DNA of 64,000 nt from Acidobacteriota bacterium (GTDB lineage: Bacteria; Acidobacteriota; Terriglobia; Versatilivoradales; Versatilivoraceae), in assembly GCA_022826755.1 (NCBI GenBank), contig JAJDUG010000033.1, positions 62,001-126,000 on the forward strand. The letters run 5' to 3'. The position numbers were made by a program, and so were the translations under genes. The notes below the pieces were generated by a model. That model made no database searches. It saw only the letters and a list, made by a program, of their open reading frames with translations, and was not told the DNA's origin. The first letter of the stretch is position 1. Every line of letters begins with the position of its first letter. Shown here in pieces: positions 24,876 to 55,412 of the stretch.

Positions 24876-24917
24876 ACCGGCCCCGTGGGCGGATCGGATT
24901 GGTGCAGGAGAAAAGAC

Positions 24918-26123
24918 GTGAACGACACTCGGATGCCCCCGGACGACAGGCTCAACGCCTTCTGCCCGGACAGCCGGGCCTACCTTCAAGGGGCGGACGA
25001 GGGCCCTCTGGCCGGACTGACGTTCGCCGCCAAGGACATCTTCGACGTCAAGGGCCACGTGACCGGCGGGGGCAATCCCGACTGGAAGGCCAGCCAGAGG
25101 GCCGCCGAAGCCACCGCTTGGGCGGTGGAGGTCCTGGTCGGCGCCGGGGCCACCATGGTGGGGAAGACCCACACCGATGAGTTGACCCGGGGCATTCTGG
25201 GCGTCAACGCCCACTACGGAACTCCCCTGAACCCCAGGGCCGCGGGCCGGGTGCCCGGGGGCTCCTCCAGCGGCTCGGCGGCCGCGGTGGCGGGCGGGCT
25301 GGTCGATTTCGCCCTGGGCTCCGACACCGGCGGCTCGGTGCGGATTCCGGCCAGCTTCTGCGGCCTCTACGGGCTGCGGCCCACCCATGGGCGCATTCCC
25401 CTGGACGGGATGTTGCTGCAGGCACGCAGCTACGACACGGTGGGTTGGTTTGCCCGGGACCCGGACCTGTTTGCCCGGGTGGGTTCGGTGCTGTTGCAGA
25501 CCCGGATCGGTTCGGCCCGGCCGCGCTGGCTGGTGGTGGCGGAGGATGCCTTCGAGGTGGCTGACCGGTCGGTCCGGGAAGCCCTGGAGCCCGTGGTGGA
25601 GCGCCTGGCTTCCTTGATTGGCCTCTCCAGCCGGGAGCGGCTGGCTCCCACCGGACTCTCGGACTGGGCTGCCGGGCAGCGGGTGCGGGCGAGCAGCGAG
25701 TCCTGGGAAGTGGTCAGGGAATGGATCGACCGCACGAATCCCAGGATGAGCTTTCAGGTGGCCGAGAGTTGCCTGGCCGGCAGAAGCCTGACCTCCGCGG
25801 AGGTGGCCGGCGCCCTGGCGGAGCGGAAAAAGGTGATGGCCCGCATGAGGACGCTGCTGGCCGGGGATACGGTGGTCTGTCTGCCCACCGCGCCCACCAC
25901 GGCTCCGCCCCGGTCGCAAACCATGTCCGAACGTCTCCCCCTGACCTCCCGCATCGTCCAATTGACCTGCCCCGCCGGAACCATTGGAGCGCCTCAGATC
26001 AACCTGCCCTGGGCCGAGGCGGAGGGGCTGCCGGCAGGACTCTCCCTGCTGGGGGCTCCGGGATCGGACGAGATGCTGATCGCCTTCGCCCGCGAGGCCG
26101 CCGAACTTCTACAGGTCGAATAG
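24918..26123 (+). CDS. Amidase (amidase-signature family, GTG start)
   Basis: 401 residues from GTG 24918, chosen because GCAGGAG sits eight bases upstream. The Ser-cisSer-Lys triad is visible: Lys in FAAKDIFDVKG, cis-Ser in PGGSSSGSAA and the nucleophile in SDTGGSVRIPASFCGLYG. The enzyme hydrolyses amides to acid and ammonia in the cytosol. The length is short compared with GatA (about 480), and no gatB/C is nearby, so it is a catabolic amidase rather than a tRNA amidotransferase subunit. It is probably co-transcribed with the fumarylacetoacetase-family gene. A CG hairpin repeat follows it and the accessory island begins about 140 bp downstream. Confidence 0.92.
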   Translation: MNDTRMPPDDRLNAFCPDSRAYLQGADEGPLAGLTFAAKDIFDVKGHVTGGGNPDWKASQRAAEATAWAVEVLVGAGATMVGKTHTDELTRGILGVNAHYGTPLNPRAAGRVPGGSSSGSAAAVAGGLVDFALGSDTGGSVRIPASFCGLYGLRPTHGRIPLDGMLLQARSYDTVGWFARDPDLFARVGSVLLQTRIGSARPRWLVVAEDAFEVADRSVREALEPVVERLASLIGLSSRERLAPTGLSDWAAGQRVRASSESWEVVREWIDRTNPRMSFQVAESCLAGRSLTSAEVAGALAERKKVMARMRTLLAGDTVVCLPTAPTTAPPRSQTMSERLPLTSRIVQLTCPAGTIGAPQINLPWAEAEGLPAGLSLLGAPGSDEMLIAFAREAAELLQVE

Positions 26124-36125: not shown

Positions 36126-36726
36126 CGGTTATTGGTCTTTTCTGTTCTCTGGTCTTCTTCTCCGGCACCGGCGCTTTCCGTGCCCTCAGCCACGGGTATT
36201 CCTCTACCGAGAGCACAACCACAACGGACCGCCCATGCCTGGCAACCGCGATCGGCGCGGGGTCTCGTTCCGCTTGGTGGACAGAATGTCGTGGCGTCTC
36301 AAACTCATTGACAGCGGCTGACTATTTGCAGCCGGTTGCAAGCAAAGTCATACCCGGGATGGAATACACCACACCCCGCGACAGGCAGGACAGACGAATA
36401 TTCTACGTCCACGAATCGATAAAATTCGAGTTGTTCCTTGATGACGATTATGTCGTATCGTTTCTTTCCGATGGTCTTTCCTCTGGTGAAAACTGTTTAT
36501 AATCTCCTTTAACACGAGTCGAGGGTGACAGCCTACACCCACGCTGATGGAATGGTCAGTGAGCAGTCACATCTGATCGCATGAACCAGCCGTTTGTGAC
36601 AACCTGAACGTGCTTGAAGCGATGCCCGTTCAAGGTGTGCGCCCTGGCCGACTGGCAGACTGTGAGGAATCGAACGGGCAGATGGCTGCACAATTCAAGT
36701 TGCCGTAAATTGATAAAATCCATCTT
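36126..36726. other. Divergent intergenic region between hsdM and the SMC-like ATPase gene
   Basis: About 600 bp, AT-richer than the flanks. One plus-strand frame ends in a protein-like segment of 47 codons (36359-36502; FYVHESIKFELFLDDDYVVS). It lacks a convincing ribosome binding site and may be a gene remnant. TTTATAAT occurs at 36496-36503 without a good -35. TAAAAT at 36714-36719 is placed eight bases before the ATG of the ATPase gene. No repeat or RNA gene was recognised. Confidence 0.5.
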
Positions 36727-37923
36727 ATGACGCCGCCACACACCGCACCGCCACGAATCGAGTACCTCAAGGTACGAAATTTTCGTGCGTTAAAAGACAT
36801 TGAATTCAAATACTTGACGCCGATGACTGTACTTCTCGGCCCCAACGGAAGTGGCAAGTCAACGGTGTTCGATGTGTTCGCGTTCCTGGCGGAGTGTTTC
36901 GAGTCCGGGCTTCGCCGCGCCTGGGACCGGCGCGGGCGAGCCAAGGAACTCAAGACCCGCGACGCCGAGGACGCGGTAGCCATTGAAATCAAGTATCGCG
37001 AACGACCGAAGACTCCATTGATTACGTACCATCTTTCCATCGACGAGGAGAAAGGTGCGCCGTTCGTCGTTCGCGAGTCACTGAGCTGGAAGCGAAAACG
37101 TTATGGTGCGCCGTTCCGTTTTCTTGACTTTCACCGCGGTCAGGGCGAGGCAACCAGCGGTGAGTTCCCCGATGAAGAAGATGAACGCGTGGACACACCG
37201 CTCAAATCACCTGACCTGTTGGCCGTGAATGCTCTGGGGCAGTTTCAGGAACACCCGCGCGTGGCGGCGCTTCGCGACTTCATCATGGGTTGGCACGTAT
37301 CCTACCTCTCGGCCGAGAGCACTCGGAGCCAGCCTGAAGCAGGTCCGCACGAACATCTGACCAGAACTGGTGAGAATCTGGCTAACGTCATTCAATACTT
37401 GGATGAGCAGCATCCAAAGCGCCTGGAACGCATCTTCGATACACTTCGAGCACGGGTGCCGCTTATTGATCGCGTGTTGGCCGAAGCCATGCCGGACGGT
37501 CGCTTATTGCTACAGTTCAAGGACGCTCCCTTTAAGCATCCGGTGATGGCCCGTTTCGCCTCCGACGGCACGTTGAAGATGCTGGCCTACCTGGTGCTGC
37601 TATATGACCCAGACCCTCCGGCCTTCATTGGAATCGAAGAGCCGGAAAACTTTTTGCATCCGCGGCTGCTTTACGACTTGGCCGAGGAATGCCGGGAAGC
37701 CACCGCGCGGACGCAATTACTGGTCACGACGCACTCACCGTTCTTTCTCGACGCACTACGACCCAAGGAAGTGCGCATTCTATGGCGGAACACGGACGGT
37801 TACACGCAAACCCGGTGCACAAATGACGTGCCGGGCGTGTCCAAGTTCATCGAAGCCGGCGCGCAACTCGGCGACTTGTGGATGGAGAGGCATTTTGGCG
37901 AAGGCGACCCATTGACGGGTTAG
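36727..37923 (+). CDS. SMC/OLD-like AAA ATPase of a two-gene defence-type module
   Basis: 398 residues. Walker [12 protein letters not shown] is near residues 36-46, an ABC-type signature-like region [15 protein letters not shown] near 277, and Walker [14 protein letters not shown] near 300. The switch histidine is in [14 protein letters not shown]. This is the AAA_21/OLD-type ATPase without the coiled-coil arms of true SMC proteins. Such ATPases act with an adjacent nuclease-like partner in PARIS, AbiL, Gabija and OLD-type systems. The partner here is the DUF4276 gene, which starts 35 bp downstream. No ribosome binding site is visible before the ATG, and a TAAAAT hexamer eight bases upstream suggests a leaderless mRNA. 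Confidence 0.82.
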
Positions 37924-37958
37924 GGCGTCCTGGAGATGAATTCACATTGGGAAAAGAA

Positions 37959-38576
37959 GTGACCGCGGCCCATCTCGAAGTGCTGACCGAAGAGCGCTCA
38001 ATGGAGGCGTTTCTGCAAACTCTCTTGCCTCGCCTTTTGCCCACACCCTCGACTTTTGACATACATTCCTTTCGGGGGAAGGCTGATCTGTTGAGAAAGC
38101 TGCTGAAACGACTGCGCGGTTACGCCAAGTGGATGCCTGAACATTATCGGTTGGTGGTCGTGGTCGACCGCGACAACGATGATTGCAGAGAACTCAAAGA
38201 ACAACTCGATGTCATCGCCCGTAATTCTGGATTAGTTACTCGGTCACTGGCTGGCCGCGGTCAGTGGCAGGTCGTCAATCGCATTGCGATTGAGGAATTG
38301 GAGGCGTGGTATTTCGGTGACTGGGACGCCGTATGTCAGGCCTATCCACGTGTACCGCGGAACATTCCCGGTCGAGCTCTCTATCGGGACCCCGACGCGA
38401 TTCGGGGCGGTACTTGGGAGGCATTCGAACGAATCATGCAGAGGCGCGGCTATTTCAGCCAAGGACTGGGAAAGGTCGGAGCAGCCCGCGCCATCGCGAA
38501 TCACATCGACCCGGAGCGTAACCGGTCTCCCAGCTTTGCGGCATTTCGCGATGCCCTTGCCGAGGCTGCGGCGTGA
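37959..38576 (+). CDS. DUF4276 family (TOPRIM-like) protein, partner of the ATPase
   Basis: 205 residues from GTG 37959. The start is chosen because GGGAAAA precedes it and the family begins right at the first beta strand. LEVLTEERSMEAFLQTLLPRL (E11/E12), VVVVDRDNDDC (D70, D72) and RIAIEELEAWYFGD fit the TOPRIM-like Glu plus DxD pattern of DUF4276/RloB-type proteins. A TOPRIM nuclease acting with an OLD-like ATPase is the probable mode; the family as such is uncharacterised. The reading frame is open upstream to 37878, overlapping the ATPase gene, so an overlapping longer form is possible. Activity and trigger are unknown. Confidence 0.75.
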   Translation: MTAAHLEVLTEERSMEAFLQTLLPRLLPTPSTFDIHSFRGKADLLRKLLKRLRGYAKWMPEHYRLVVVVDRDNDDCRELKEQLDVIARNSGLVTRSLAGRGQWQVVNRIAIEELEAWYFGDWDAVCQAYPRVPRNIPGRALYRDPDAIRGGTWEAFERIMQRRGYFSQGLGKVGAARAIANHIDPERNRSPSFAAFRDALAEAAA

Positions 38577-38872
38577 CCGAGACCGCGTGTGTCGGTCGCG
38601 ATTTTCGGCCATAACCGGATCCAAAGTGCACGCCGTCGCCCACCATCGGCCCGATTTCGCCTCAGAAACCGCAGGTTTCGTCGCCTGTGGGGAACCTGAG
38701 ATTTCGGTCTGGTCCGCCAACAAAAAGCCCGTAGGATGGCCTGTCCTGCACTCTCTCGGTTTCCGACGACCTGGAGCACCTCGGGTTTCAAGCGCCGAAC
38801 GGTTCGGAAGTAAAACTGTTGACAACGTGGGAGAGGAAAGGGCGGTCGTCCCGCGAGGGGGCCTGACCCTGA

Positions 38873-39004
38873 ATGTTGATTTCGATCCTGTTATGGACCC
38901 TGGCCCTGCTCTTGGTGGCGGTGGGGGTGGCGGGGACGATCATGCCGGGGCTGCCGGGAACGGTACTGGTACTGGCGGGCCTGGTGCTGGCTGCCTGGAT
39001 AGAC
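38873..39004 (+). repeat. 132-bp direct repeat, left copy (5' end of DUF456 gene)
   Basis: It matches 44905-45036 with 8 differences over 132 bp and no gaps. Similarity starts exactly at the ATG and ends after GGATAGAC. Six of the eight differences are synonymous. Confidence 0.9.
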
Positions 39005-39358
39005 GGGTTCTCCCGTGTCGGCGCCCCAACGGTCGTCGTCCTGGTGGGCCTCACTCTGCTGGCCTACGCGGCCGACTTTGTCGCCGGAGCCCTGGGGGCC
39101 AGGCGCTCGGGCGCCAGTGGGCGGGCCGCCGCCGGAGCCGGGCTGGGTGCGCTGGTGGGATTGTTCTTCGGCATTGTCGGAGTGCTGGTCGGTCCCTTCC
39201 TGGGGGCCGTGCTGGCTGAGCTGAGCCTCCACGGCAACCTGGAAAGGGCTGGCCGGGCGGGCATCGGCACCTGGCTGGGAATGGCCGTGGGCGCGGCGGT
39301 CAAGGTGTCGTTGGTCATCATGATGATTGCGGTCTTCCTGCTGGCCTACATCATTTGA
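38873..39358 (+). CDS. DUF456 family small membrane protein
   Basis: 161 residues, almost all hydrophobic: four to five transmembrane segments with glycine-rich loops (VGVAGTIMPGLPGTVLVLAG, GIVGVLVGPFLGAVLAEL). This is the DUF456 family of unknown function. The first 44 codons occur again at 44905 in a truncated copy, so this gene marks one edge of a duplicated boundary in the island. The ORF is complete. It ends 9 bp from the end of the convergent DUF262 gene. Its composition is as GC-rich as the core chromosome, unlike the neighbouring defence genes, so it may be an original resident of the locus. Confidence 0.8.
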   Translation: MLISILLWTLALLLVAVGVAGTIMPGLPGTVLVLAGLVLAAWIDGFSRVGAPTVVVLVGLTLLAYAADFVAGALGARRSGASGRAAAGAGLGALVGLFFGIVGVLVGPFLGAVLAELSLHGNLERAGRAGIGTWLGMAVGAAVKVSLVIMMIAVFLLAYII

Positions 39359-39367
39359 GAGACGGAA

Positions 39368-41194
39368 TTATCCAATACCATCTTCATAGTCTGCCGTATC
39401 GGATATGTGAACCACTTGCTTCCCCATGGCCACCTCGACGAGCCTACTCAATCGCCGCCGACGGTCTTCGACGAAGTCGTCGAACGCATCTTTCCGCAGC
39501 AGATGTGGTGCAAGTGCGTGGCTGCACAGCAGTTCATCCATTTCGGTGTCATTCAAGGCAACCTGTTTCTCTCTCTGGATCCTTAACAGGTAACGGGACG
39601 GTGCCTCACCTCCTACCTTTCGATTCGCCTTGTAGGAGATGGGGGTCTTGTTTAGGATGCTGTCATACTGGTTTCTTTCGATGCCCCGCTTTAAACACCA
39701 GTCCCGCGGAAAGATGTGGTGGATGTCAAGTGCGATTTCCTCGGCATCTAGATCCTTAATAGTAGTCTTCCAATACCAGTCCTTGGAACCCTCCCGAAGT
39801 ACAAGCACATTAATGCCTTTATAGGCAGCGCTCAGGCGCGAACGAAGCGTGTTTAGGCGGTCCGGCTGGAAGTTGGCCTCGCGAACTGTCCGCGGAAGCA
39901 AATCGTCGTCTTCAAACCAGATTAATAATTCCTCGTAGTCATTGGCCATGCGCGTCTCTACTGCACCGCCGTAGAGCTCGCCGAGCACACCAGACCAGAA
40001 CCACCGCGTTAGCTTGTCATATATGCGAGGTTCGAGCCAACGGTCGCCAAGGCGAGTAAGCACTGCCGCTAGGGGCACAAGTTGTGTGCGGTAGGGCAAC
40101 TCCCGCCGGTCGTAGAAGCATTGTCTGCGAAGAAAACGCGCAACGTTACGAAACCCTGCCTCTAGATCATCTGCCCACTGTGTCCACGCGCTGAGTGGAA
40201 TTTGCAGGACATCGGCCCGCTTGGCGCTGACCGGGCGCACCTGCTTACCGGTCTTGCCAGCGTCAATATCTGCCCGTCTCGTTTCGTGCGTACGTAACAG
40301 ACTAACTCCTTGGAGAAATTCCGTGGCCTCGATACCCTTGAGCAGTGCATCTTGTTCGAGGCGCTGTTTCCGAGATTCGACGTTGTGCGCCTTGGAACCA
40401 AACCAATCGTCACGCAGGTTATAGCCATCCGCCGCAAAGGTGGCCGTGATCAGCTCGAACACCGAGAGCGGTACCCCACCGGTGTTCACCTTCTCAAAAA
40501 CCAAACAGACGGCCTCTTTGGTGGTCTCTTTCAGTAGCTGAATGATGGGAATCTGGTATGTGCGAAACGCAGCGAGAACTATTTGCCGAAACTCCATGTA
40601 GGAGCCGAACTGATTTTGTGCCACCCGATTCAGGGTGACCTCCCAATCGTCCGAGTTCATGATCTGGTTGCAGGGAAAGTGCAGGTGCTGGCATTCCAGC
40701 TCGGTTGTGGACAGGTCCAAGTCCACCCTTCGGCCAAAATCACTTCGCAGCTGTCGATTCGCATCTACGGCCACAACAGCGTCATCAAGCGAATCGGGTG
40801 CGTCCAGGGCCTTGCGAATATCGAAGTAATAGTTGCGCTCAATCCGTTTACCCTTTGCGGTCCGCGTACGGACGGGCTTGTCGAGTGAGAGAGCCTGGGT
40901 CAGGGTCGTGAGGCGTTGTTGCCCATCGAGGATTAGCCTCTCTGGTTTGCGGTTTTTCGGCACTTTATCCTCCAGCCCCTCCACCGGTCTTGTCTGGAAT
41001 CGAACCTCTCCGCCTGCTTCAAGGAGCATCACCGCACCGATTGGAAAGGCTCGGGCAATACTAACCAGTAGATCGCGAATGTGGTCGTCGTCCCAAATCC
41101 AACCGCGCTGGAAATCCGGCAACTGGATCTTGCCTGCGTTGATTTCGCGAAGGAGGTCGCTTAGCAAAGCCTTTGTGCTGTCAAACGTCGTCAT
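39368..41194 (-). CDS. DUF262/HNH (GmrSD-like) protein
   Basis: 608 residues. The N-terminal DUF262 domain has LPDFQRGWIWDDD (25-37) and the ParB-like LILDGQQRLTTL (87-98). A helical middle follows, then a C-terminal DUF1524-type HNH motif with LDIHHIFPRDWCLKRG near residue 490. This single-chain arrangement is that of GmrSD and relatives, type IV restriction enzymes that cut modified (for example glucosylated hydroxymethylcytosine) phage DNA, and of BrxU. DUF262 hydrolyses nucleotides and the HNH cuts DNA. The ribosome binding site GAGGAACAAAC precedes the ATG. It stands between a DUF456 gene and an RloC-like gene. Substrate preference is not readable from the sequence. Confidence 0.88.
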   Translation of the reverse strand: MTTFDSTKALLSDLLREINAGKIQLPDFQRGWIWDDDHIRDLLVSIARAFPIGAVMLLEAGGEVRFQTRPVEGLEDKVPKNRKPERLILDGQQRLTTLTQALSLDKPVRTRTAKGKRIERNYYFDIRKALDAPDSLDDAVVAVDANRQLRSDFGRRVDLDLSTTELECQHLHFPCNQIMNSDDWEVTLNRVAQNQFGSYMEFRQIVLAAFRTYQIPIIQLLKETTKEAVCLVFEKVNTGGVPLSVFELITATFAADGYNLRDDWFGSKAHNVESRKQRLEQDALLKGIEATEFLQGVSLLRTHETRRADIDAGKTGKQVRPVSAKRADVLQIPLSAWTQWADDLEAGFRNVARFLRRQCFYDRRELPYRTQLVPLAAVLTRLGDRWLEPRIYDKLTRWFWSGVLGELYGGAVETRMANDYEELLIWFEDDDLLPRTVREANFQPDRLNTLRSRLSAAYKGINVLVLREGSKDWYWKTTIKDLDAEEIALDIHHIFPRDWCLKRGIERNQYDSILNKTPISYKANRKVGGEAPSRYLLRIQREKQVALNDTEMDELLCSHALAPHLLRKDAFDDFVEDRRRRLSRLVEVAMGKQVVHISDTADYEDGIG

Positions 41195-41792
41195 GTTTGT
41201 TCCTCACTGCCTACCCTTCATGTACAAGACTCTTGGCGGCAATCGGTCGACAGCACGCACCAAGCGCCACTCATCGTGTCGCTTGGTACGGTCGACTTGG
41301 CGTTGACGGGCAGGCGCCTATTGTTTCAGGTCTCAGGGCTACGATCAAGCGACCGACGACGTGCTTCTTCCTCTGATAGCCCCTCCTACGTCGCGGTAGC
41401 GTGTGAGTGTCTCAGGGAACGATCTGGCAGCCCTTTACCCAAGGGAAGTAATACTGATGCCACCGTTCTCGGTGGTTTTGCGTCGCAAGGGCAACGCTTG
41501 GCGAAAGTCACGGGACCGGGCCGAATGAGGCGCCAACCGGGGATGGCCAAAGGGAAGTCCAAAGCCTACGGCCTCCAGCCATTTCCATGACGAACGGGCG
41601 TCGGCAGGATTCAGAGTACTGCAAGAATTAGCGCAAACGACACAGGTTCTATTTTCCCGTACCATCAACATCTCGTCGATATAGCCCGGGAGACGCTCGG
41701 CAAGTCTATCAGTCTGGTGAATCTGACTGATCAGGAGGCTGCCGCTAGCTGAAAATGTATTGTAGTGTTGATCCTCGTAGCGCAAGTGGCAA
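41195..41792. other. Intergenic region between the RloC-like and DUF262 genes
   Basis: About 600 bp. On the minus strand a 129-codon frame (41435-41824) overlaps the end of the RloC-like gene and includes ENRTCVVCANSC, but it has no ribosome binding site and no recognised family, so it is not called. No repeat, RNA gene or strong promoter was seen. Confidence 0.5.
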
Positions 41793-44477
41793 TTAGGTCG
41801 TGGCTGCTTTTGGCGGCTTTTCAAGCCTCCTTCGTGTTTTCTCCGCAGCCCTGGATCGCTCGCGTAATTTGATCCGATACTTGTCCAGTTCGGTGACTTC
41901 TTTCTTCAAGTCCTCGATCTTTGGGACCGGTGCGTTCTTTGCCGCTGCCATGTCATGTCCGGAGCGTTCCGAGACACGTTTCATGGCCCAGAAGATTGTC
42001 TTGTAGTCCTCATCGTTCACCACGACCCTTTTCAAGCTCTGTGTCTTCACGTCTGACCCGAATCGCTCCACGACCCTGGAAAGCAATACCTCCTCAACAA
42101 GGCGCTCCCACGTTTCTCTTAGGTCTGTGAAGAACCCCTCCACCCCGTGGCGGTAAGCATCGCCATCTTTATCGACTATGGCCTCTATCGCCTTGATCTT
42201 CTTGCGAAGAAGATCGATACGCTTATTTGTTGTTTTCGCTTCCCAAGGTTCGTCATCCTCCTCAATGACTCCGAAGCCAAGGTCCGCAGCCTTGCGGACG
42301 ACGTTTGTTAGAACCGGAACCGGATTGGGCGTTTTAGCCGCTGCGAGCGACATCACTTCTGAAAAGAAAAGCAGGTTGTGCGTGAAGACAATCACCTGCC
42401 GGCCTGCGGCGGCTTCAGCCACAAGACGGTCAGCGACTCGCCTGATTCGAACGTGATCGAGCGATGAAACAGGGTCATCGACGATGATCCCATGTCTAAC
42501 CGGTTGCCCGTTTACATCCGCAAGGAAACAGGCGAGGCCGAGAGCCCGCTGTTCGCCTTCGCTCAGCACGTCCTGGCTCGCGACCTTCCGCTGAGCATTA
42601 AGCTTTACTGAAAAACGACTTTCACCCTTTCGGCTGGTTTCGTTGATCAGCAGTGGAATGTGCGCCAGATCAAGTACGTTAATTTCCTCACGAATGCGAT
42701 TGTTTAGATCCTCCGTGACGAGTTGCCTTCGCAGCGCACTCACTTGGTAAGAAACGGCATTGGTCTTGGTTTCGCCGACACAATCTAAGAGGCGAGCCCG
42801 CAGTTCGAGGTCATTGCGCCGCGCACGAATTGTTTCGAGGTTCTCTGATAGGCGTTTTTGATCCAGTAGCGAAGCGAGTTTGTTCTTGCGCTTCTCCCGG
42901 TCGGCATCATCTCCGGCTGCACGGTCAAAGGCAACCGCTTCAGCCTCCAGTGCCTTCTTCTCGGCACGCAGTTTTTCGATCACTGAGCCGTCGAGTTCAG
43001 CAATGCCTGAAGAATCGCCAGACTCGACTGCCGCTAACAGTTTCTTCCGGCGTTCATCTGCTGCCTTGACCAATTTCTCAACGGCAGCCGCGGTATCTGC
43101 TCGCGCATCACTCATGTCGGCATATTCCCCGAGCAGTGACTTGATATCCAATGATGAGCGTACCTGGAGCACCTTGATAGCTGCAGATTGTTCGTCCCGT
43201 ATTGCTGCGGCTTTCTCAGCGTCCTTTCTTGCTTCGCCGGTGACATAGTTTTCAAAGCGGCGAAGTCTTTCTGCTGCTTCCTCTGCCAATGGCTGCTGAC
43301 AGAGCACGCATAGATCGCTCTCACGTGTTGCGGGCGGCTCGATATCCGGATAGGCCAGCTTTGAGTATTCCTTGGCATGCTGAAACATCAGCTGCCAGGG
43401 ATCGGAGCCGATATGCGGCAAGGGATCAGCTTTGAACAACGTAGTCGCAGCAAGAGACGCAGCTTCGGCTGTTGCGCGTGCATGGCTCACAGCCCGGTCC
43501 AGTTCCTTTGCTTTGGCTTGAGAAAGCGTGTCTCGCGCTCTCGCCAGTTCCTCGATCAAGTTGGACACGATATTCCGAGCTCGGCGGCAGCGATCAGCGA
43601 GGACCTTGGTGTCGTTCCCGACGCTTTTCTGAAGCGTTGCCAAGTCCTGCGCGAGTTCAACGGTCCACGTGCCGAGGGCATTTACCTCCGCGATTGTCGG
43701 CAACTCTGCCAAGGGTGTCTCGGATGTCAGTCGATTGACGAGTGCGGATATAGGAGTGCCCGGTGTGTAGCCGGTTGGAAGATTGAATTTGAGGCGTTGG
43801 TCAACGACTTTAATTTCTGCCGAAAGATCTTCTTGAAGCTTGGCCAACAGTTGTCCAAAACGCGTAAGCAACTCGATTTGGTACGGGAGGTAATCAATCC
43901 GGTTTCGCGCGTCCACATAGAGCCGGGCATTGTGACTATCGAATACCGAAAGATGGGCGATGTCACCCGGCCCATCCGCGCCATCCCGCCACGTGGTTTC
44001 GCTTACGTTAGTTGCGCCCTCGACCTTGTAGCGGATGCGCGCCTCGGCAGGAGGAGGATTGCCGGGCGCAAACACGTTTGGGTAAATGGTGTCCTTGACG
44101 ATCGCACGGCAAAACTTCTTCAGAATGCGACAATAGCCGCTCTTGCCGGAGCCGTTGTGGCCATAGATTAAAGTGATTCCATTTAGCGCAAACCGCAGTG
44201 TCTGACCTGGAGCGAGACGGTTTGCATTCTTGATGTCGTCAATCGAACAAAGTTGAGCCAGAGGCGCTGTCCGGGCATCCGGTTGAAGGTGGTCTTTCTT
44301 GAGGGGCTGCGATTCCAATTGTCCATCTGGCGGTAATCCTTTTGCTTTCTTGAGGTTGGCCAGAATCGCCGAAGTATCCGCGTCCGCCAACTCCGTGGAA
44401 AGCGCCACCCGGCGAAGCGCATCCTGCTGCCAGTCGGGCTGCTTTGATGTCCACTCGATGATTAAGTCTAAGGCCAT
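41793..44477 (-). CDS. RloC/PrrC-like AAA ATPase with zinc hook
   Basis: 894 residues from ATG 44475-44477, preceded by GAGGTAAGTTGAAC. In order: an N-terminal segment (ALDLIIEW...PDWQQDALRR), Walker A IYGHNGSGKSG (about 104-114), and a long coiled-coil region interrupted near 390 by CVLCQQPL, a Rad50-like CxxC zinc hook. Then come the second ATPase half with IIVDDPVSSLDHVR (about 665) and FTHNLLFFSE, and a C-terminal helical domain. The latter has RETWE (R and E four apart, as R320/E324 in PrrC) and RVSERSGHD with a histidine. RloC and PrrC are anticodon nucleases held silent by type I restriction enzymes. That activity is inferred here; the ATPase plus hook is directly visible. Confidence 0.8.
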   Translation of the reverse strand: MALDLIIEWTSKQPDWQQDALRRVALSTELADADTSAILANLKKAKGLPPDGQLESQPLKKDHLQPDARTAPLAQLCSIDDIKNANRLAPGQTLRFALNGITLIYGHNGSGKSGYCRILKKFCRAIVKDTIYPNVFAPGNPPPAEARIRYKVEGATNVSETTWRDGADGPGDIAHLSVFDSHNARLYVDARNRIDYLPYQIELLTRFGQLLAKLQEDLSAEIKVVDQRLKFNLPTGYTPGTPISALVNRLTSETPLAELPTIAEVNALGTWTVELAQDLATLQKSVGNDTKVLADRCRRARNIVSNLIEELARARDTLSQAKAKELDRAVSHARATAEAASLAATTLFKADPLPHIGSDPWQLMFQHAKEYSKLAYPDIEPPATRESDLCVLCQQPLAEEAAERLRRFENYVTGEARKDAEKAAAIRDEQSAAIKVLQVRSSLDIKSLLGEYADMSDARADTAAAVEKLVKAADERRKKLLAAVESGDSSGIAELDGSVIEKLRAEKKALEAEAVAFDRAAGDDADREKRKNKLASLLDQKRLSENLETIRARRNDLELRARLLDCVGETKTNAVSYQVSALRRQLVTEDLNNRIREEINVLDLAHIPLLINETSRKGESRFSVKLNAQRKVASQDVLSEGEQRALGLACFLADVNGQPVRHGIIVDDPVSSLDHVRIRRVADRLVAEAAAGRQVIVFTHNLLFFSEVMSLAAAKTPNPVPVLTNVVRKAADLGFGVIEEDDEPWEAKTTNKRIDLLRKKIKAIEAIVDKDGDAYRHGVEGFFTDLRETWERLVEEVLLSRVVERFGSDVKTQSLKRVVVNDEDYKTIFWAMKRVSERSGHDMAAAKNAPVPKIEDLKKEVTELDKYRIKLRERSRAAEKTRRRLEKPPKAATT

Positions 44478-44904
44478 GTTCAACTTACCTCGCTGACCAC
44501 CCTGACGTGACGATATCTTGGCAACCGCCACTGTGAAGCATTAATGAGCAACCTCGATTCCGTACACCCTCAGTAAGATTTTAATCCATAAGAACTCTGG
44601 AGAAGTTCTCCTGGAAAATAGCTCACAGGTGAAAAGTGCCGGTTGCTAAGGCAAAGACGCTGATGAGACCGTTCAGTTCGTGAAGCGAATAGGGCAGGAG
44701 CATGATTCCGAAATATTGGACACATAGCTGACGCAGCCAGTGCGCGCGCAACAGCCCTTTTCTGGACGAAGAAAGACCTTGGTTGGGTGTAACTGTGGTG
44801 GGAACGGTAATGCCAGGATAGGCGGAAGCCGTCGTGGTTGCAGCCACCACAGCGACTCCACTCGGGAAAATAGAATCATGCGGAAGACGGTGGCACTACC
44901 CCAA
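44478..44904. other. Intergenic region upstream of the RloC-like gene
   Basis: About 430 bp. It contains a short palindrome (44599-44611) about 120 bp before the RloC-like start. No ORF, RNA gene or dispersed repeat was recognised. It ends where the truncated DUF456 copy begins. Confidence 0.5.
44599..44611. promoter_or_regulatory. Palindrome GGAGAAGTTCTCC upstream of the RloC-like gene
   Basis: Two six-base arms (GGAGAA, TTCTCC) around one base, next to AT-rich DNA (TTAAAAT on the minus strand at about 44579-44585) that could be a -10. It could be an operator site for the toxic ATPase gene; this is speculative. Confidence 0.25.
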
Positions 44905-45036
44905 ATGCTGATTTCGATTCTGTTATTGACCCCGGCCCTGCTGCTGGTGGCGGTGGGGGTGGCGGGGACGATCATGCCGGGGCTGCCGGGCACGGTGCTG
45001 GTACTGGCGGGCCTGGTGCTGGCTGCCTGGATAGAC
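44905..45036 (+). pseudogene. Truncated copy of the DUF456 gene (right 132-bp repeat)
   Basis: The first 44 codons of the DUF456 gene at 38873 are repeated here with 8 base differences. After GGATAGAC the sequence diverges and runs into two UUCG hairpins instead of the rest of the gene. The two amino-acid changes are a Trp-to-Leu and a Leu-to-Pro in the first helix. No ribosome binding site precedes the ATG. It is a broken gene end and the right boundary of the duplicated segment. Confidence 0.85.
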
Positions 45037-45051
45037 TCTCTCTACACCCCT

Positions 45052-45128: not shown

Positions 45129-46478
45129 TCAGGACTTGTGTTTCAGGGCGCGCCAGTCCAGGCGGCGGGTCAGGTACATGGTGACGGCCAGCGCCAGGAA
45201 GAGCCCGAGGGTGCCGACCAGCAGGGCGTAGTCCTGGTTGCGAAGCAGGACATAGAGGTATCCGTACAGGAGCCCCAGGATGACGGCTATCAGGGCCGCC
45301 CCGCGGGGCTTGCCCAACACCGAAAGGCTGTAGCTGGCGAGCAATACCACGGTGGAAGCGCTGGCCAGGACATAGGCCGGGCCGAAACCCAGGTGCTCGG
45401 AAAGGGACAGCACCAGCAGGTAGAACAGGCACAGGCCCGCGCCCAGAAGCAGGTATTGCAGCGTGTGAATCCGCAACCCCGAGAGAACCTCGTAGAGCCA
45501 CAGGGTGATGAAGGTGAAAGCCAGGAACAGGATGGCGTACTTGACACTGCGATCGACCATTCGATAGGGGTCGACCGGTGTTGCCAGGGTCAGGCCGAAC
45601 CGGGAAGGTGAAATCGAGGGCGGGTCTGTTTGGGACGTCCACCTCTGAGGGTAGCCGCGTCCCAGGAATGGAATGCTCCAGGTGGCCTCGAATCCCCCGT
45701 CCGTCACCGTGCGCTCGGTGGGGAGCCAGTTTCCCTGAAAGCTGGGATGGGGCCAGTTCGACTGGAGATCGACGGTAGTCTGATTGCCGAAGGGCGCAAA
45801 GAAAATCGCCTCGCTGCCGTTGAGCTCCAGCGGAAACTTGAACTCGAAGGCCGTTCCCTTCAGCCGCTCCCGCAGGCTGGCCTGAATTCCGGGATGGTTG
45901 CTGCTGGACTCGCCCGATCCGGGATGAAAGGGGAGGCTCTCGCCATTCCAGGAAAGCGCGGCTGCATTCTGTATGGCTCGCGCATCGGAGATATTCACCG
46001 AGAGGTGGGCGCGGTCCCAGAGGATATCCTCCGGCCGGACTCCCCATTCGCTGAAGTCGGGCGCGGCGAAGGCGCCCTCCAGTTCCAGGGCCAATCGATA
46101 CACCGGAACCTCGTAGATGCCCCGATAGCGCAGGTGGGTTTCGGCCCTGCCGGCGACCGTGAGTGTCTCCGCCAGGAAGTGGCCATAGTTCACCTCGGTG
46201 CGGGTGGAGGGCTCGCCCTCGGGGGTTTTCTCGCTTCGGTGTTCCAGGTAGGGAATGACAATCCTGGGGCCGGCCAGCGACTGCTCCTTGCCCCATTTGG
46301 AAGTGACGTCCTGTGTCGCTTCCTGCTGTCTCGTCCGGCGCTCCGAGACCACGCCGTGAATCAGCAGGATGGGAATATGCAGCAGAAGCACCAGCAGCGC
46401 CAGCAGGCAGGCGCGCAAGATCGGTGAGTTCAGAACGGACTGCCGATTGATCAGAAATCTGGGCGTTTCAGTTGACAT
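45129..46478 (-). CDS. creD: CreD-like inner membrane protein
   Basis: 449 residues. TM1 at about 24-44 is followed by a large periplasmic domain (about 45-315; IPYLEHR, SVNISDARAIQ, SFQGNWLPTERTV). Then a cluster of five C-terminal helices includes VKYAILFLAFTFITLWLYEVLSGLRIHTLQYLLLG, the CreD hallmark. In enterobacteria CreD belongs to the CreBC (carbon source responsive) regulon and influences envelope integrity and colicin sensitivity. No creB/creC is nearby. A ribosome binding site GAGGAGACTTCCCG precedes the ATG. It lies just outside the accessory island, convergent with the terminator at 45074. Confidence 0.9.
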   Translation of the reverse strand: MSTETPRFLINRQSVLNSPILRACLLALLVLLLHIPILLIHGVVSERRTRQQEATQDVTSKWGKEQSLAGPRIVIPYLEHRSEKTPEGEPSTRTEVNYGHFLAETLTVAGRAETHLRYRGIYEVPVYRLALELEGAFAAPDFSEWGVRPEDILWDRAHLSVNISDARAIQNAAALSWNGESLPFHPGSGESSSNHPGIQASLRERLKGTAFEFKFPLELNGSEAIFFAPFGNQTTVDLQSNWPHPSFQGNWLPTERTVTDGGFEATWSIPFLGRGYPQRWTSQTDPPSISPSRFGLTLATPVDPYRMVDRSVKYAILFLAFTFITLWLYEVLSGLRIHTLQYLLLGAGLCLFYLLVLSLSEHLGFGPAYVLASASTVVLLASYSLSVLGKPRGAALIAVILGLLYGYLYVLLRNQDYALLVGTLGLFLALAVTMYLTRRLDWRALKHKS

Positions 46479-48470: not shown

Positions 48471-48528
48471 TCCATCCTCCCCACCGCACCAGCCTTCGCC
48501 ATTCGGCTCGACTTCGGCGACTCCTGAC
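48471..48528 (-). repeat. Dispersed CTCCCCCTTGAGGGGGAG element, copy 2 (partial)
   Basis: On the minus strand: GGAGTCGCCGAAGTCGAGCC, GAATGGCGAAGGCTGGTGCG, then GTGGGG. It lacks the leading inverted repeat but shares the rest with the element at 55347. Confidence 0.75.
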
Positions 48529-55346: not shown

Positions 55347-55412
55347 CACTCCCCCCTTGAGGGGGAGTCGCAGGAGCCGAGCCGAATGGCGAAGGCTGAT
55401 GCGGTGGGGGGG
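55347..55412 (+). repeat. Dispersed CTCCCCCTTGAGGGGGAG element, copy 3 (complete)
   Basis: The leading inverted repeat CTCCCCCCTTGAGGGGGAG is followed by TCGCAGGAGCCGAGCC, GAATGGCGAAGGCTGATGCG and GTGGGGGGG. This is the most complete of three copies and lies directly downstream of fabF. Confidence 0.8.

Follow-up and report, generated by a model that had tools for sequence, protein, structure and literature searches.

The 132-bp direct repeat around a defence cassette in this Acidobacteriota genome is an ordinary recombination scar in a modular defence hotspot and does not mark where a mobile element ends. Its right-hand copy, the first 44 codons of a DUF456 gene, has in our judgement about an even chance of being the leftover of an import beside the resident DUF456 gene, subsequently cut down to its present length. 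On a small scale, the site illustrates how recombination around conserved genes drives the turnover of defence islands in uncultured bacteria, with no visible dedicated mobile element, and it cautions that a direct repeat flanking a defence cassette need not be an attachment site.

The window, by which we mean the whole 64-kb stretch of DNA that was analysed, was compared with six relatives of the same genus (G001 to G006), giving a set of seven genomes in which the contigs of some relatives end inside the site of interest. The named records of the genus that we found are all metagenome-assembled Acidobacteriota, one of them Candidatus Versatilivorator vitaminiformans, and a literature search on the genus name Versatilivorator returned nothing. 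The features discussed below are collected in Table 1.

Table 1. Features of the DUF456 site and its neighbours, in positions of the window.
Feature	Position	Strand	Remark
Amidase gene	24885..26123	+	Conserved left neighbour of hotspot; adjoins DUF456 in G003 and G005
HEC-01A/HEC-01B pair (AAA_21 + DUF4276)	36727..38576	+	97.7% identical to G006
Intact DUF456 gene, 161 aa	38873..39358	+	Kept in 7/7 genomes of the genus; opens with the left repeat copy (132 bp)
Left repeat copy	38873..39004	+	First 32 bp and 46 bp before ATG nearly identical to G006
GmrSD_N/DUF262 protein, 608 aa	39368..41194	-	88.8% DNA identity to G001 copy
SbcC/YhaN-like AAA_27 gene, 3'-end remnant	41580..41749	+	Frameshifted; intact copy and SbcD-like partner here in G001
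AAA_13 RloC-like ATPase, 912 aa	41793..44531	-	PADLOC PDC-S06
Junction zone J1	44640..44757	.	Cassette end (G001-similar to about 44640) to DUF456 leader
DUF456-type leader of truncated copy	44757..44904	+	44757-44837 resembles G002 leader
Right repeat copy	44905..45036	+	Truncated DUF456, codons 1-44, with W8L and L10P
Junction J2	45037..45044	.	DUF456 codon 44 to ancestral terminator/intergenic before creD
creD	45129..46478	-	Conserved right neighbour of hotspot

The repeat copies, each of 132 bp and corresponding to codons 1-44 of DUF456, are 94% identical and form the strongest repeat within the window (blastn E 5e-52, which rules out a chance repeat); the genome contains these two copies only. 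On the right their similarity stops at codon 44, on the left it is gradually lost within about 16 bp upstream of the ATG, and the longest exact runs common to both are 46 and 39 bp. They differ at 8 positions, of which six are synonymous (codons 2, 5, 13, 14, 29 and 31) and two are not (codon 8, W/L, and codon 10, L/P). The first-pass annotation had these coordinates and counts correct to the base, and it was also right that the copies are not a recent slip: they differ by 6.1%, as compared with a divergence of 5.6% from the sister species G006, which fits a donor at sister-species distance rather than a fresh duplication.

Judged from the empty or differently filled sites in the relatives, the site is a hotspot with the layout amidase, variable part, DUF456, variable part, creD. 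The intact gene encodes a DUF456 protein (PF04306, E 1e-34), and all six relatives have one full-length DUF456 each. In G002, G003, G004 and G006 it is followed by sequence leading into creD within about 30-100 bp, with no defence genes between, and in the record of G005 other sequence begins beyond the same terminator. On the other side, DUF456 of G003 and G005 is immediately preceded by the conserved amidase gene, leaving that side empty, and in G006 HEC-01 directly precedes DUF456 as it does in the window. The filling of the hotspot varies accordingly: it is empty in G003, holds HEC-01 in G006 and a DUF4143 gene in G004, and in G001 consists of a type I restriction-modification system plus GmrSD, SbcCD-like and PDC-S06 genes. 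In the window, HEC-01A/B and a type I restriction system are found to the left of the intact DUF456, and creD to the right of the cassette. By Pfam and PADLOC prediction the contents are defence genes (type I RM, HEC-01A/B, GmrSD_N and PDC-S06, with predicted activity), and the same flanking genes enclose different defence content among the relatives. No Rfam match to a structured RNA was found in the region. The place of HEC-01 in the window, between hsdM and DUF456, is taken in G001 by three other genes (L014:547-5098), one with a SEC-C motif and one weakly similar to PDC-M32A.

Defence hotspots bounded by core genes have been described as the core defense hotspots of Pseudomonas aeruginosa (PMC10250203) and the variable defence locus of Streptococcus suis (PMC5398294). 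The present site is like them in that conserved neighbours, here amidase, DUF456 and creD, enclose variable defence modules which differ from relative to relative. It is unlike them in that a conserved gene, DUF456, stands in the middle of the site with modules on both its sides, and in that only seven genomes are compared here.

The repeat does not define the cassette, since G001, a single-contig genome, has the same cassette with no second DUF456 copy around it. The order there is DUF456, GmrSD, SbcD-like, SbcC/YhaN-like, PDC-S06 and creD; the left junction falls on the same base in both genomes, namely the DUF456 TGA followed by GAGACGGA, and the right end passes into a native DUF456-creD spacer resembling that of G005. 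The claim that the repeat brackets the segment is thus not supported. Between GmrSD and PDC-S06, G001 has an intact SbcCD-like pair (L013:12639-17458); the window has lost these two genes, and only the 3' remnant of the second is kept. The identity of the cassette between the window and G001 is 89%, which equals that of the backbone (88-89%), and it is therefore possible that the two cassettes descend from a common ancestor. Under common descent, the sister species G006 would possibly have become devoid of the cassette by loss or replacement; a transfer of the cassette from a different species within the genus is just as possible.

A crossover between the two copies would remove 6,032 bp, and DUF456 would then break off at codon 44 in front of the creD terminator. 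It is physically possible given the 46-bp exact run, and shows no sign of use. This product is found in none of the six relatives, all of which keep the gene at full length, and where the cassette is absent the site carries the full DUF456. The removal route and the segment-less junction that had been suggested on the strength of the repeat are accordingly not what the relatives display. One could imagine that the repeat serves as the working end of a defence element capable of excision, and 132-bp direct repeats with exact runs of 46 bp could presumably recombine via RecA. We nevertheless consider such an element very improbable indeed, and disfavoured both by the cassette without repeats in G001 and by the empty sites: its excision would cut a gene kept by every relative, and there is no recombinase gene among those examined. 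The repeats do not form element ends matched by an empty site, as the cassette begins beyond the stop codon of DUF456, and no integrase, transposase or recombinase domain was found in the island genes scanned, among which small ORFs were covered only in part.

The truncated copy is the 5' end of a DUF456 gene with its own leader and with the 3' part missing, because a G002-like leader lies upstream of it and the creD terminator is joined at codon 44. The match of this leader to the DUF456 leader of G002 has 70% identity over 91 columns (E 1.6e-6), and the two leaders lie at nearly equal distance from the start codon. To the right of J2, homology to the relatives resumes at 45041-45045, and the frame of the truncated copy stays open through another 64 codons of unrelated sequence, which cross the terminator and run antisense to the end of creD. 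Joints of this kind could be an assembly artefact or a chimera of strains. The window genome is a draft in 81 contigs and probably metagenome-derived, as are all the named records that we found for the genus. Such an error is quite improbable, however, as neither junction shows the long shared sequence that is usually needed for misjoins, and both flanks are ordered as expected from the relatives. As to the source of the truncated copy, each of the sampled relatives was rejected: the leader matches G002 only, and weakly, and the tree of the 132 bp is unresolved.

When the 8 differences between the copies are polarised against the six relatives, the numbers being small, four fall on the intact copy (sites 4, 39, 40 and 93, all synonymous and two of them common to G006 only), three on the truncated copy (site 15, synonymous, and sites 23 and 29, which give W8L and L10P) and one, site 87, is left unpolarised. 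The synonymous excess (6/8, p 0.016) lies on the intact copy and reflects divergence between functional alleles; it does not testify to selection on the truncated copy after its truncation. The latter has the look of a fragment in decay, as two of its three private changes are nonsynonymous and hit residues that do not vary among the relatives. That both copies had been under coding selection, as the first-pass annotation would have it, is not supported, the synonymous excess being on the intact copy.

The differences are also unevenly spread. The copies are identical over sites 41-86 and 94-132 and share a G at site 105 that is found in no relative, and six of the eight differences fall in sites 1-40, a part in which the left copy resembles G006. 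Both observations agree with an internal duplication, in which leader and DUF456 would have been placed to the right of the cassette by a tandem duplication or a templated insertion, followed by a deletion of the remainder of the second unit and by a later import of HEC-01 that overwrote the left copy's leader and 5' end. We hold this to be somewhat unlikely, as it requires three events, the intact tandem is present in no relative, and the two differences in sites 41-132 could also be reached with a donor diverged by 5.6% (p 0.11). The identical last 39 bp and the shared G do speak against import, being explained more simply by duplication within a single lineage.

A recent event took place beside the left copy. 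The fourfold-site divergence from G006 is 0.040 in HEC-01 as against 0.122 in backbone genes (Fisher p 4e-6), and the HEC-01A/B module (36416-38581) is 97.7% identical to G006, with the flanking backbone at about 94.5%. HEC-01 was recently exchanged, either with the lineage of G006 or with a donor common to both. The near-identity also covers the 46 bp of leader and the start of DUF456 as far as bp 32, and the 3' part of the left copy is slightly nearer to G001; a break in the sister grouping of the DUF456 3' part with G006 is not significant (AU p 0.15), and 5.6% of backbone windows are equally diverged. Such a mosaic, with a G006-like 5' end and a 3' part closer to G001, would suit a Campbell-type integration, where one crossover within the resident DUF456 brings in a circular molecule with DUF456 and the cassette and the right copy is later truncated, and which would yield direct DUF456 repeats around the cassette. 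It is improbable all the same, as no plasmid or integrase genes are found among the island genes scanned, and the same insertion exists in G001 without repeats.

The explanation that we prefer takes DUF456 as a conserved gene in a defence hotspot, with modules that are gained and lost on both its sides. An incoming block with its own DUF456 and the GmrSD-like/RloC-like cassette would have recombined onto a chromosome still holding the resident leader, DUF456 and creD, either upstream of the resident DUF456 or across it, anchored by homology at or near DUF456 on one side and joined illegitimately on the other (J1), with two DUF456 copies as the outcome. The redundant right-hand copy would then have lost codons 45 to stop by deletion (J2) and decayed. 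We infer the order of events, the direction of transfer and the mechanism of the joins; the illegitimate joints J1 and J2 are visible, and the homologous crossover in the 5' end of DUF456 is only suggested by the mosaic sites. Import is favoured because the relatives have a single full DUF456 each and empty or differently filled sites, because the cassette of G001 shares the left junction and lacks the repeat, because the leader of the truncated copy sits where that of G002 does and the copy joins the ancestral creD terminator, and because HEC-01 beside the left copy was exchanged recently. Against it, the hsdM-DUF456 spacer of G002 has about 300 bp that are found on neither side of the presumed point of insertion, and the joint does not close cleanly. 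Two full-length tandem DUF456 paralogues without the defence genes, the arrangement that had been named beforehand as contradicting import, were searched for in the relatives and not found; none of the six has two full copies. The import first proposed, of DNA from a relative that had a DUF456 of its own, thus stands as the likeliest origin, although G001 does not bear out the part of the proposal in which the repeat brackets the segment.

A comparable process is known from the T6SS immunity arrays of V. cholerae, where homology-facilitated illegitimate recombination leaves orphan genes (PMC5361080). The likeness lies in a module that is anchored by homology on one side and illegitimately joined on the other, with the old gene orphaned downstream; the difference is that what is left over here amounts to 44 codons of a membrane-protein gene, and that the mechanism is only deduced. 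It is a tentative and rather unlikely generalisation that DUF456 serves as a recurrent anchor, with Acidobacteriota species of this genus exchanging whole defence modules on either side of it and dead 5' fragments marking the exchanges.

Two smaller observations concern short repeats. About 246 bp between HEC-01B and DUF456 (38581-38827) are absent in G006, and parts of this stretch match dispersed short repeats elsewhere in the window genome and in the relatives. A 46-bp inverted dispersed repeat (91%) occurs at 48479-48524 and 55364-55409, with related copies in the relatives.
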